45,184 nucleotides of DNA, taken from contig CAKKRE010000072.1 of assembly GCA_919902505.1 (NCBI GenBank), positions 1-45,184 of the forward strand, written 5' to 3'. The position numbers and the translations under genes are program-made. The stretch is from Nitrospiraceae bacterium (GTDB lineage: Bacteria; Nitrospirota; Nitrospiria; Nitrospirales; Nitrospiraceae). The stretch's first letter is position 1, and each line of letters begins with the position of its first letter. Of this stretch, positions 20,577-44,334 are shown one piece after another. Under the pieces are notes generated by a model. That model worked only from the letters and a program-made list of their open reading frames with translations, searched no databases and was not told the origin of the DNA.

Positions 20577-23500
20577 ATGTGGCTGACACTTCTCGCATTG
20601 CGCAATCGCATCGGCATCCTGATGCTGTCCCTGGCCATGGTGATCCTGGGGGCCACCTCTCTCGACCGCCTTCCCGTCGATCTCTTTCCCAACATTCAAG
20701 TCCCCGTCGCCTTCGTCGGCGTCATCTATAAGGGCGCTCCCCCGCTCGATATCGAACAAAGCGTGGTCTACCCGATTGAAAAGGCCGTCAGTTCCGCCTC
20801 GAACGTCGAACACGTCGAGTCCTTTGCGAAGCAGGGCATCGGCGCGGTGCAGGTCTGGTTCAACTGGGGCGCGGATATCAACGTGGGACAAATGGAAGTG
20901 ATGCAGCGCATTACCCAAATTCTCAACAGCCTGCCGCCCGGCATCCTGCAACCGTTCATCGTCAAGTTCGACGTGTCTAACATTCCCGTGGCGATCGTCA
21001 CGGCGGCCGGCGGCGATATGGATGAGCGGGCCCTTTACGATCTGGCTTATAACACGATTGCCCCGCAGATCGAACAGATTGCCAACGTCGCGGCCGCCAC
21101 GGTTGAAGGCGGCAAGATCCGGCAGATCAATATCAATCTGGACCCGGCGTTGCTCCAGGCGCGCGGACTGTCCATTCTCGACGTGGTCAAGGCCGTAAAA
21201 GCCTCCAACCTGATTCTGCCCTCCGGCGACATCAAAGCCGGCAACCTCGACTACAACGTATTCACGAATACGCAGTTCAAGACGGTAGAACCGATCAACG
21301 ACGTGGTGGTCAAGATCGACCCGCGGGGCAATCCGGTGCGGGTGCGCGACATCGGCACGCTGACGGATTCCTCCGACATTCAAACCAACGTCGTCCGCAC
21401 GGACGGCAAGCGGTCCGTCTACCTCCGGGTCAACAAGCAGCCGATCGCCAACACGGTGGAGGTCGTCGATGCCTTGCGCAAGGCCATCCCCAAGATGATC
21501 GGCATTCCGCCGGGGGTGCACCTGGGCATCTCGTTCGACCAATCGGTCTACATCAGGCAATCGATCAAGAACCTCATCGAACAAGCGCTTCATGGATCGT
21601 TGCTCGCAGCGGCGGTGATTCTTCTGTTCCTCCGGAACCTGACCAGCACCCTGATTATCTCGGTCGCCATCCCACTTTCCATCCTCGTGACCTTCATCGT
21701 GCTCTATTTCACGAACCAGACCTTGAATGTCTTCACCATGGGAGGGCTGGCGCTTGGCATCGGACGCCTGGTGGACGATTCCATCGTGGAATTGGAGAAC
21801 ATTCAGCGCCATTTGAACGTCGACCGGAACCGGTGGGACGCCATCGTCAACGCCGCCCGCGAAGTCGCCATGCCGATCTTCGCCTCTACGGTCACCACCG
21901 TCGTCGTCTTCCTGCCCATGTTTTTCATCGTCGGGATTGCGCGGCTCCTGCTCATTCCGTTGACCCTCACGATCGCCATCGCCCTGTTCACCTCCTTCTT
22001 CGTCTCCCGCACCGTCACGCCGGCACTCTGTTATCGATTTCTCAAACCCGAGCAGGAGGCACATCGCAACCTGCCTCACTGGTTTGTGAACATCATGCGC
22101 TGGAGCCAGCGCCGCTATGAGGCCCTCGATGAGGGGTATGAGCGCAGCCTGCGATGGGTGCTGGCCCACCGTCGCACCTTGCTGGTTTCTGTGGTGACGA
22201 TCTTCGTCGGATCGCTGATGCTCCTGCCCTTCATCGGAACCGAATTTCTGCCGGTCTCGGACGAAAGCCAGTTCCGGATCGTGCTTCGCGGCCCGGTCGG
22301 TCAGCGGGTGGAAAAAACCGTCGATCAGGTCGCCGAAGTCGAGCGTGTGCTACGGGAAAAGATTCCGCCGGATGAACTGGAAGCGATCGCCTCCAGCACC
22401 GGAGTCCTGGCGCAGGGGCGCTCGTCGCTGTTCAATCCCAACACCGGCCCGCACACCTCGGTCATTTCCGTTTATTTGTCGTCTCCCGACAAGCGTCGGC
22501 GGAACCAGGTCGAAATCATGAATGCGGTGAGACCCGCGATCCTCAAGCTCTTCCCCGGCGTCGCGATGTTCTTCGATCCGGGAGGCCTAGTCAAACGGGT
22601 CACCAGCTTCGGTTCCCAGAAGTCCATCGATGTCGAAATTTACGGGTACGACTTCGAAAAGGCCCGCACCGTCATCCACCAGGTGCAGGAGGTCATGCAT
22701 AAGATTCCGGGCATGGCCGACATTGAAGTCAGCCGGGAGGAAAACTACCCTGAGGTCAACGTGGTCGTCGACCGAGAGAAGGCGGCGCTGCTGGGGATCA
22801 GCGAAACGGACGTCGCCAACGCCGTCCTGTATTCACTGAACGGAAACGGCCAGACCGATCCGATCATCTTTACCGACCCCCAGAACGGCAATGAATACTA
22901 CATCAGCGCCTGGCTCGCGGAAGAACATCGCAAGGACCTGTCGGCCATCGAGCACGTCCTGTTGACGACGAAAAACGGAGAGCCGGTCCTGCTCAAGAAC
23001 CTGGCCACGCTGAAACTGAACGCCGGTCCCGTGAAGATTGAGCGCAAATACTTCCAGCGCGTCGTCCACATTACCGCCAACCCCGTCGGCCGCGACCTCG
23101 GCTCGATTGCCCAGGACCTGGAGTCAGCATTCGCCCAGATGCAGCTGCCGCCGGGATTCAGCATCCGGCTCGCCGGACAAATCCAACAACAACGCGAGAC
23201 GTTCGAAGGCCTCACCTATGCCAGCGCCCTGGCATTGATCCTGGTCTACATGGTGATGGCCGCGCAATTTAAGTCGCTGATCGACCCCTTCATCATCATG
23301 TTTTCCGTGCCGATGGGAATCCCCGGCGTGATCGTCATCCTCTATTTGACCAACACGACCATCTCCACCTCCTCCCTCATGGGCATCATCATGATGCTGG
23401 GAATCGTGGTCTCCAACGGCGTCCTGCTGGTGGACTACACCAATGTGCTGCGACGCCGGGGCCTGGGCCTCGCCACCGCTGTCGTCACGGCCTCGCGCAC

Positions 23501-41381: not shown

Positions 41382-43214
41382 ATGAGTCCTCCAGCCGAAT
41401 CAGAAAAAAAAACCGCCGCTGAAACGCATCTGCAACGCACCCTGACATCCGTCGTCAACGGCTTACCCGCCGATGCCGCCCTGGTCGCGATTTTCCACCA
41501 GGAGCAGGGACCGCTCACGACGCAGGTGCATCGCGGGTTCACCCCGCGCGATGTCCAATCGATCGTCCGCACGCTGTCCTCGCAGAAGGTGCTGACCTCC
41601 GTCCCCGTCGGCAACGATCCCGAAGCCTCACGCACCATGCGCCTTCGTCTGGTCACGCCAGGCGCCAAGTCGCTGCTGGGCGTGCCGCTGCGCCACCGTC
41701 AGCGCACCTTTGGCTTCTTGGTGATCGGACGGAAAGATAATGCCGTCTATGCCAAAAAAGACAAGACGATGCTGGAGCAGGCCGGCGACGACATTACCAA
41801 GGCGCTCGAACGGGACAGCCTCTTCGATCTCAACGTGCTGCTGAGCCGCCCGCTGGTCGTGCAAGAGCCGCAGCCGGTCATCGCGACCCCGGATGTCTAC
41901 AACGCACCGACCTCCCATGCGACCCCCGAGATCCAAGAAAAAATCGTCGTGCTGCTCAACGAACTGGGTCAGACCCTGGCCTTCGACCGCGCCTGGATCG
42001 GAGCCTATGACCCGCTTGCCGGCAATGTCGAAGTGCTCGGTATCGCCGGAGAACAAAAGACCGACCCGAAAGACCAGAAGAAAGATCTCAAAGCGGGCCA
42101 GCGCCTGACGCTCGACGCCTCCGCCGCCGGATGGGTGGTGCGCCACCGCAAGCCGCGTGTCGATCACGATCTCGCGTCGACTCAGGGCCGCTTCCTCGAT
42201 CACAAACATCTGTACAAAGACCGGTTCCAGTCGTCGCTGGTGCTCCCCTTCTTCCTGCGCGGCCAAGTCGGCGGCACCATCACACTGGCCTCGAAAGAAG
42301 CGGACCGTTTTGCAGTGACCGATGCGCGGTTGCTCGAGCCGATCAATCTCAAATTGGTGGACCTGCTCCAGGCTACCCCACCCGCAGCACCAGGCGCCGC
42401 CACAGCTGAAGGCGCGCCGGATTCCGAGGCAGGTTCAGCCGCGTTGATTTCGGCTGAACCGGTGATCAGAAAACAAGAACGGCAGGCGGCCATCGGAGAG
42501 TTCAGCGCTTTCCTCGCGACTGAAATCCGGGAACCGCTGGGTTCGATTCGGGCGCAGTTGGAAGAGGTCACGGCCGAGGGCATCCTCGACTTCGACCCGC
42601 AAACCCGTGTCGAGAACGCCATGCGGGATCTGATCCGCATCGAAGCGATTCTCAACGAAATCCTGGACTTCGCCAAACCACTCGACCTCATGCGTCGGCT
42701 TTGCCGCGTTCCGGAAATGGTCGAAAATGCGTTGACCGTGGTGGCGACGGAACTGGAAGCCACTCGCATCCAGGTGGTCAAAGAATATGCGGGGCTCCTC
42801 GCCCCGGTACGGGCCGACGAAGCCAAAATGCAGCAGGTCTTCCTCAGCATTTTCAAAAATGCGATCGAAGCCATGACCCCGGGCGGCATCCTGACCATCT
42901 CCATGAGCAACCAGCGGGCAGGACGACATCTGGAAGTCCAGATCCTGATCAAGAACAACGGGGCGCCGATTCCCCCCGAACATGTGGACAAGGTGTTCGA
43001 GCCGTTCTTTACGACGAAGCGGTCCGGCACCGGCCTGGGCCTCGCCACCGTGAAGAAAATCGTCGAGGAACATCAGGGCAGTATCGGCATTTCCGGCACA
43101 CCCGGCGAAGGGACCACAGTGACGATCCGTCTGCCCGGTGTCAGCCGAGGTCCGGCCCATCGGTATCGAGGGCGCGGACGCCGTCCGCCACGCAGACCAA
43201 CTGCCGCATCCTAA
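41382..43214 (+). CDS. GAF-domain histidine-kinase-like protein without the phospho-accepting His
   Basis: A 610-residue soluble protein. Two GAF-like regions occupy about residues 20-150 and 185-330 (AFDRAWIGAYDPLAGNVEVL; SSLVLPFFLRGQVGGTITLA). A dimerisation/phospho-acceptor-like helix follows, then an HATPase_c domain at about 450-590 with FKNAIEAM (N box), NNGAPIPP, FEPFFTTKRSGTGLGLATVK and GEGTTVTIRLP. The H-box that normally reads H-E-(I/L)-(R/K)-N-P-L is F-L-A-T-E-I-R-E-P-L: the His is Thr380. The G1-box Asp is Asn525. Both changes predict loss of normal autophosphorylation. No response regulator follows. It may sense a ligand and act as a scaffold. The C-terminal 25 residues are basic and Arg-rich. 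Confidence 0.88.
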   Translation: MSPPAESEKKTAAETHLQRTLTSVVNGLPADAALVAIFHQEQGPLTTQVHRGFTPRDVQSIVRTLSSQKVLTSVPVGNDPEASRTMRLRLVTPGAKSLLGVPLRHRQRTFGFLVIGRKDNAVYAKKDKTMLEQAGDDITKALERDSLFDLNVLLSRPLVVQEPQPVIATPDVYNAPTSHATPEIQEKIVVLLNELGQTLAFDRAWIGAYDPLAGNVEVLGIAGEQKTDPKDQKKDLKAGQRLTLDASAAGWVVRHRKPRVDHDLASTQGRFLDHKHLYKDRFQSSLVLPFFLRGQVGGTITLASKEADRFAVTDARLLEPINLKLVDLLQATPPAAPGAATAEGAPDSEAGSAALISAEPVIRKQERQAAIGEFSAFLATEIREPLGSIRAQLEEVTAEGILDFDPQTRVENAMRDLIRIEAILNEILDFAKPLDLMRRLCRVPEMVENALTVVATELEATRIQVVKEYAGLLAPVRADEAKMQQVFLSIFKNAIEAMTPGGILTISMSNQRAGRHLEVQILIKNNGAPIPPEHVDKVFEPFFTTKRSGTGLGLATVKKIVEEHQGSIGISGTPGEGTTVTIRLPGVSRGPAHRYRGRGRRPPRRPTAAS

Positions 43215-43801: not shown

Positions 43802-43830
43802 TTGACACGGCTTCTTCAGATAGCTAAGAT
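43802..43830 (+). promoter_or_regulatory. Sigma-70 promoter of the small secreted protein gene
   Basis: TTGACA (43802-43807), exactly 17 bp, then TAAGAT (43825-43830). Transcription would begin near 43838 and the start codon is at 43904, after AAAGGAG at 43890-43896. Confidence 0.7.
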
Positions 43831-43903: not shown

Positions 43904-44272
43904 ATGAAATTCGTGATCGGCAGCGTCGCGACCCTTGCAGGTGTATTGTTTATGTGTTCGATGGCCTCCGCGAATCCGGCCCTGTTGCCGAAGCACGAAG
44001 GTTATCCGATGAAGAACGACGGCAGCCCGGTGAACGGACAGCCGACAGCTAATGACCCAGGCCAGAAGGCTGGGGGGGGCGAGTCCACCCTGCTCAAGTC
44101 TGCTGATTCCTCCAGCAAGCATGCCGAACAGAAATTGGTGAAGTCGGACAACGCGCGAATCACCGAAGGCCAGGGCGCCGGCCGGTTACCGAACGTCCAG
44201 GGCCCGCAGATCAAGATTGAGCCACCGGTGACCTCTGCCACGAAAATCACTGGCGACCGTAAGATCGACTAG
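43904..44272 (+). CDS. Small secreted hypothetical protein
   Basis: A 122-residue protein with a signal peptide (MKFVIGSVATLAGVLFMCSM followed by ASA, cleavage before NPALLP). The mature part is hydrophilic and probably disordered: EGYPMKNDGSPVNGQPTAND, QKAGGGESTLLKSADSSSKH, KLVKSDNARITEGQGAGRLP. No family is recognised. It has a full set of expression signals, a consensus-like promoter, AAAGGAG ribosome site and a strong terminator, so it is likely well expressed as a single gene. Confidence 0.78.
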   Translation: MKFVIGSVATLAGVLFMCSMASANPALLPKHEGYPMKNDGSPVNGQPTANDPGQKAGGGESTLLKSADSSSKHAEQKLVKSDNARITEGQGAGRLPNVQGPQIKIEPPVTSATKITGDRKID

Positions 44273-44293
44273 TTTCCACTCGATAGAACGAAG

Positions 44294-44334
44294 ACGGGGC
44301 CGTTGTCTCACGACAACGGCCCCGTTTCTTTTTG
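44294..44334. terminator. Intrinsic terminator, probably serving both directions
   Basis: A perfect 13-bp stem ACGGGGCCGTTGT (44294-44306) / ACAACGGCCCCGT (44313-44325) with loop CTCACG, followed by TTTCTTTTT. It lies between the convergent secreted-protein and glycosylase genes. Confidence 0.93.

Follow-up and report, generated by a model that had tools for sequence, protein, structure and literature searches.

A gene for a GAF-GAF pseudo-histidine kinase occupies positions 41382–43214 (+ strand, ATG start, 610 residues; assigned from the open reading frame and its orthologues) of the stretch of Nitrospira DNA analysed here, which spans 45,184 nucleotides and is referred to as the window. 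Judged from its sequence, the protein would be classed as a pseudo-histidine kinase, being recognizable as a histidine kinase, having lost the residues on which activity depends and being encoded by a gene that has been kept; it is predicted to be catalytically inactive. Loss of the catalytic residues under strong selection suggests that it probably signals by binding partners and not enzymatically. The account we favour is that this cytosolic GAF-domain protein probably works in the manner of DivL, binding a two-component partner without phosphotransfer. It shares 98% identity with its orthologue in Ca. Nitrospira defluvii (FP929003.1).

Domain organization and altered motifs

Four Pfam domains are recognized on the protein: GAF (residues 15–142, positions 41424–41807, + strand), GAF_2 (residues 191–320, positions 41952–42341, +), HisKA (residues 372–432) and HATPase_c (residues 479–585). 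The HATPase_c match is strong (86.7 bits against a cut-off of 26.4), and the HisKA match lies barely above its cut-off (28.7 against 26.9 bits). Within the second GAF domain (GAF2) is a near-invariant stretch, S247–D273, whose invariant columns in 18 aligned sequences read SAxGWxxRHxKPRxDxxLASTQGRFxD, with R254, H255 and D261 among the conserved residues. Below the GAF domains are a HisKA-like DHp region without a phosphoacceptor His (residues 366–436, positions 42477–42689, +; assigned from Pfam, the alignment and a dN/dS of 0.005) and a CA (HATPase_c) domain (residues 445–585, positions 42714–43136, +; from Pfam and the structure model) that keeps its fold in the model.

The H box reads FLATEIREPLGS, and alignment with same-genome paralogues places Thr380 (codon ACT, positions 42519–42521, +) at the phosphoacceptor His. 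Four residues further on, Glu384 (positions 42531–42533, +) takes the H+4 place, which is Asn or Thr in HisKA phosphatases, in agreement with the title of the HK853 T264A PDB entry. In the altered G1 box, NNGAPIP (positions 42954–42974, +), Asn525 (codon AAC, positions 42954–42956) replaces the Asp and Pro529 the second Gly. In the N box, Ser489 stands for the first Asn and the second, Asn493, is retained, as are the G2 box GTGLGL (positions 43026–43043, +) and the F box FEPFFTT. The His-to-Thr and Asp-to-Asn changes reported by the first-pass annotation are thus both real, and the GTGLGL motif, F box and GAF domains that it listed as retained are present by motif and Pfam; its count of two key changes, however, overlooked the losses at Glu384 and Pro529.

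Forty-one further places in the same genome match, of which 40 were compared. His stands in 32 of the 33 readable H boxes and the G1 Asp is present in all 40, so the losses in the window protein exceed chance. The one exception (G000:C50, about 22147–22881) has Asn for the H-box His (LANEFNQ) and retains the G1 Asp (DNGGG). A published share of HisKA domains without His, as given in the part of the source available, is 0.9% (722 of 76,471; PMC12632262).

An AlphaFold2 model built from 28 sequences is of middling quality (mean pLDDT 70, pTM 0.35); the ATP lid (residues 539–552) has pLDDT below 50, and the lid and the domain orientation are left uninterpreted. The CA part superposes on ThkA with a Z-score of 20.6 and r.m.s.d. 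of 2.0 over 147 residues, and the DHp-CA part on ZraS (Z-score of 21.5, r.m.s.d. of 8.6, 215 residues) and DivL (Z-score of 20.6, r.m.s.d. of 9.6, 218 residues), the three being almost tied; the predicted DHp-CA fold also matches HK853. The large r.m.s.d. over two domains means that the domain arrangement either differs or is poorly modelled.

Conservation and selection across Nitrospirales

All 29 genomes in a search of the genus match, the window's own counted and one match (G027) being a fragment at a contig end. Across the class, a match at E 1e-50 is found in 222 of 269 genomes; among the matches listed all are in Nitrospirales, and among the genomes listed at least 13 of that order have no match at this threshold. 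The orthologue set comprises 105 distinct proteins of the order, the window's included and many of them closely related, with matches below 150 bits excluded.

Of the 102 distinct proteins readable at position 380, 101 have a residue other than His (Thr 84, Gln 7, Ala 5, Ser 2, Gly 2, Met 1, His 1). All four Thr codons (ACG, ACT, ACC, ACA) are used, which indicates that Thr is held at the protein level. The residue that follows is acidic throughout (Glu 98, Asp 4), and the H+4 position is never Asn or Thr (Glu 89, Arg 9, Pro 2, Asp 1, Gln 1; 102 readable). Outside a small family, f3, the G1 Asp position is Asn in all 100 readable proteins, Asn493 is kept in 100 of 100, Pro529 in 99 of 100 and the G2 glycines in 99 or 100 of 100. 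As to whether orthologues keep the two residues singled out by the first-pass annotation, Asn is therefore fixed outside f3, and Thr is the commonest residue at a site that also admits Gln, Ala, Ser, Gly, Met and His.

The prevalence of Thr and the constant acidic neighbour would fit a genuine kinase that uses another residue, either Thr380 itself or a different His, but this is highly improbable. The G1 Asp is lost, and the occurrence of Ala, Met, Gln, Ser and Gly at position 380 rules out Thr as a conserved phosphoacceptor. On a quick tree of 74 rows, which warns of long branches meeting at families f2 and f3, the three rows with Ala at this position require three separate changes, and these independent changes speak against a phosphorylated Thr. 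A conserved His nearby, which the first-pass annotation had named as the finding that would overturn its reading, was looked for as an alternative phosphoacceptor: across residues 355–444, which take in the DHp, His occupies any one position in at most 12 of the 105 proteins, and it reaches at least 80% of proteins only at His255 (GAF2) and His564 (CA). The single orthologue with His at position 380 (L131, family f2) has a Gln-bearing relative as its neighbour on the tree and still carries Asn in the G1 box; its His is either a regain or a relic. Two small genomes of about 1.8 and 2.0 Mb (G185 and G105; loci L305 and L306), with ten first-look candidates each, retain the pseudokinase, and L306 has Met at position 380.

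Family f3 (4 proteins) has an eroded ATP site, with Cys for Asn493, no G1 motif (Arg at the Asp position in the 3 readable proteins), the G2 glycines mostly missing and the F box absent where readable. The GAF2 core and a DHp-like stretch are retained, and the loss of most ATP-site motifs alongside them makes catalysis look dispensable. Three of the f3 proteins stop normally after about 532–535 codons and the fourth (L133) is truncated by a contig end; the reported in-match stop is the ordinary C-terminal stop in both cases shown.

Selection on the gene was estimated as Nei–Gojobori dN/dS of genus sequences against the window copy (27 comparisons), giving 0.005 for the DHp, 0.017 for GAF2, 0.026 for the CA domain, 0.051 for GAF1 and 0.041 for the whole. 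Two canonical kinases of the genus gave 0.036 and 0.037 (DHp), 0.091 and 0.118 (CA), 0.061 and 0.074 (N-terminal part) and 0.080 and 0.083 (whole). Compared with these, the pseudokinase is about 7-fold more constrained in the DHp and about 3.6- to 4.6-fold in the CA domain, and its whole-gene value is about half; with dS of about 0.7–1.5 the ranking is safe and the values are not, and the controls are two kinases. Pairs with saturated dS were removed, the first control keeping 23 (DHp), 26 (CA), 24 (N-terminal) and 27 (whole) of 27 and the second 24 of 24, with second copies in one genome (L251, L277) omitted. GAF2, DHp and CA are unusually constrained; GAF1 is not, being no tighter than the N-terminal parts of the controls.

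These values bear directly on whether the gene is decaying, as the missing catalytic residues and the stripped ATP site of f3 might suggest. Decay can be dismissed almost entirely: the match in every genus genome and a dN/dS half that of canonical controls rule it out at the level of the genus, and in both cases shown the in-match stop is an ordinary one. Our results thus uphold the first-pass description of a maintained pseudokinase, given the low dN/dS, the 29 matching genus genomes, the near-absence of His at position 380 and the fixed Asn outside f3.

The DHp is the most conserved region, with just 2 of 71 columns variable among 28 genus sequences. Over the 93 rows of f1 and f4 (all rows outside f2 and f3) it has the highest proportion of columns with 97% identity or more (34 of 71, against 36 of 130 in GAF2, 47 of 141 in CA and 15 of 128 in GAF1). 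Half of these DHp columns (17 of 34) are charged or Gln, a pattern fitting an interaction surface. The positions H+8, H+11 and H+15, which specify the response regulator in HK853 according to a PDB title, are conserved at 73, 83 and 94% across f1 and f4, and this variability is a weak argument against a single fixed partner.

The retained parts of the ATP site bear on two further readings. The protein might work in trans, as a heterodimer with an active kinase, its CA domain binding nucleotide and phosphorylating the partner's His or its DHp joining an asymmetric dimer. The constancy of Asn493 and the G2 glycines outside f3 would agree with this, and ChrS is described, in the available part of the source, as forming heterodimers with HrrS, a paralogous kinase, although these were not observed with the truncated pseudokinase form itself (PMC9491836). 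Against it, Asn replaces the G1 Asp in all readable proteins outside f3, and no same-genome paralogue shares the GAF-GAF part at E 1e-8; on balance we regard this reading as unlikely. The G1 Asp is the usual adenine contact, and its change to Asn is expected to weaken or abolish ATP binding. The invariant Asn525, near-invariant Pro529, kept Asn493 and G2 glycines and the scrambled site of f3 together suggest a selected ligand site. From these residues the former CA domain could be read as a sensor of another ligand, perhaps GTP or (p)ppGpp, that would report nucleotide state through the DHp helices, although we think this unlikely, much less probable than the binding of a partner and slightly less so than action in trans.

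A His-bearing ancestor of the kinase that shares its sensor was sought among 16 genomes from other families of the class and among the listed matches outside Nitrospirota, and none was found. In those 16 genomes the GAF-GAF profile has no match at E 1e-8 and the full profile gives DHp-CA matches only. In a collection of 84,980 species, the matches listed from outside Nitrospirota span only about residues 334–604; the search patterns were derived from the window protein, and distant relatives could escape them.

Genomic neighbourhood and the small downstream protein

Upstream of the pseudokinase gene in f1 and f4 there are often genes for a prenyl diphosphate synthase, HpnA, a CruF-like carotenoid protein, a cytochrome c and a Phage_holin_4_2 protein, the names being taken from the window's genes. 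The corresponding neighbour clusters 2, 3, 5, 6 and 7, delimited with a crude ORF picker, occur in 19, 19, 16, 13 and 13 of 35 stretches. The few neighbouring genes identified include no response regulator next to the pseudokinase gene. In f3 (L165, L166, L167 and L169) the eroded gene is preceded by a long Cys-rich protein, which by eye resembles a radical SAM–methyltransferase fusion, and by a small, membrane-like protein.

The most consistent neighbour lies downstream, an open reading frame for a small protein of 122 residues (positions 43904–44272, +), which by eye looks secreted, with a signal-peptide-like start followed by NPALLPKHEGYP. It belongs to a family of about 110–130 residues whose members begin, again by eye, like signal peptides and share an ANP..H.GYP stretch that is invariant in 26 aligned members; against Pfam nothing scored above a family cut-off. 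A consensus scan placed a sigma-70-like promoter match ahead of the gene (positions 43802–43830, +), possibly by chance (2 such sites in the region against 0.9 expected), and a terminator-like hairpin of 16 pairs past it (positions 44292–44327, +).

In 65 of 71 distinct loci, each with 1.2 kb of room (8 loci with too little room were excluded), the small gene follows the pseudokinase gene on the same strand at a distance of no more than 1.2 kb: 49 of 50 in f1 or unassigned, 6 of 6 in f2, 10 of 12 in f4 and 0 of 3 in f3. At L143 about 3.5 kb separates the two genes. Among the genomes tested, the family is present in 13 of 13 of f1, f2 and f4, 0 of 4 of f3 and 0 of 11 of other families of the class. 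The small protein has thus been lost where the ATP site is eroded, in f3, a coincidence that counts as a single event. Two copies occur in 9 of the 13 f1, f2 and f4 genomes; the second sits elsewhere in all 7 f1 genomes tested (in the window's genome at G000:C52:31004–31363), and the single copy in each of two f4 genomes (G215, G220) is away from the pseudokinase gene. Such second and distant copies argue against a tight link between the two proteins. Nine stretches with further copies were inspected as a guide to the function of the small protein; the gene is visible in six (L288, L289, L291, L293, L294 and L295) and was not shown by the ORF picker in L290, L292 and L296. They gave no such guide, as none of the six has a kinase-like ORF as next neighbour (L289 has one five ORFs off).

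Proposed mode of action and relation to known systems

We propose that the GAF domains monitor the cell interior, by binding a small ligand or by some other means, and that this input would alter the shape of the DHp-CA dimer. The dimer would dock a two-component partner, whether a response regulator or a kinase with catalytic activity, and the activity of the partner would be changed through binding alone, as for DivL with DivK~P and CckA. The family makes it testable whether the histidine kinase fold can persist for binding alone, offering more than 100 natural variants that run from an ATP site that is near-intact, with a single fixed Asn, to one almost erased. Within the genus the pseudokinase is under stronger selection than two active kinases. 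It is a candidate for a core regulator in Nitrospira, a genus of importance for nitrite oxidation in soils and treatment plants.

By profile the nearest named kinases are AtoS and ZraS, the best NCBIfam matches over residues 361–587 (187.8 and 150 bits). These scores are far below the curated cut-offs of 646 and 479, and the present protein differs in its GAF sensor and in the loss of the His, the H+4 residue and the G1 Asp. ZraS is the top solved relative by profile and by VIA-align, and ranks fourth in Foldseek.

Functional work on pseudo-histidine kinases, in the parts of the literature covered, concerns DivL and a laboratory-evolved ChrS (PMC4211667, PMC9491836). The ChrS of Corynebacterium glutamicum is, in the text available, a histidine kinase that has lost its kinase activity yet retains an effect by way of a paralogous kinase (PMC9491836), but its defect is a CA-domain frameshift evolved in the laboratory, whereas the present family has been kept across an order. 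DivL is described in the accessible part of its source as having no kinase or phosphatase activity, binding ATP weakly, and engaging DivK~P in much the way that regulators are bound by canonical kinases (PMC4211667). In the same partial account, it resembles the Nitrospirales proteins in having the fold of a histidine kinase but no phosphoacceptor His, a patch of high conservation close to that site and, in one orthologue, Ala in place of the His, as in some Nitrospirales members; the loss of DHp-CA in some alphaproteobacteria is a further likeness. It differs in that DivL, as described there, is alphaproteobacterial, with PAS domains, Tyr (or Ala) at the His position and an intact G1 box, whereas the Nitrospirales family has GAF domains, mostly Thr, and a G1 box of the form NxGxP. 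The window protein would thus be DivL-like at most in its working, and is not a member of the DivL family. Pseudo-histidine kinases are an already described kind in the available portions of two sources (PMC12632262, PMC9491836), and among the matches listed from the openly licensed literature there is no report of an order-wide GAF-GAF family with a fixed NxGxP G1 box. The family described here is a new, order-wide one of this known kind.
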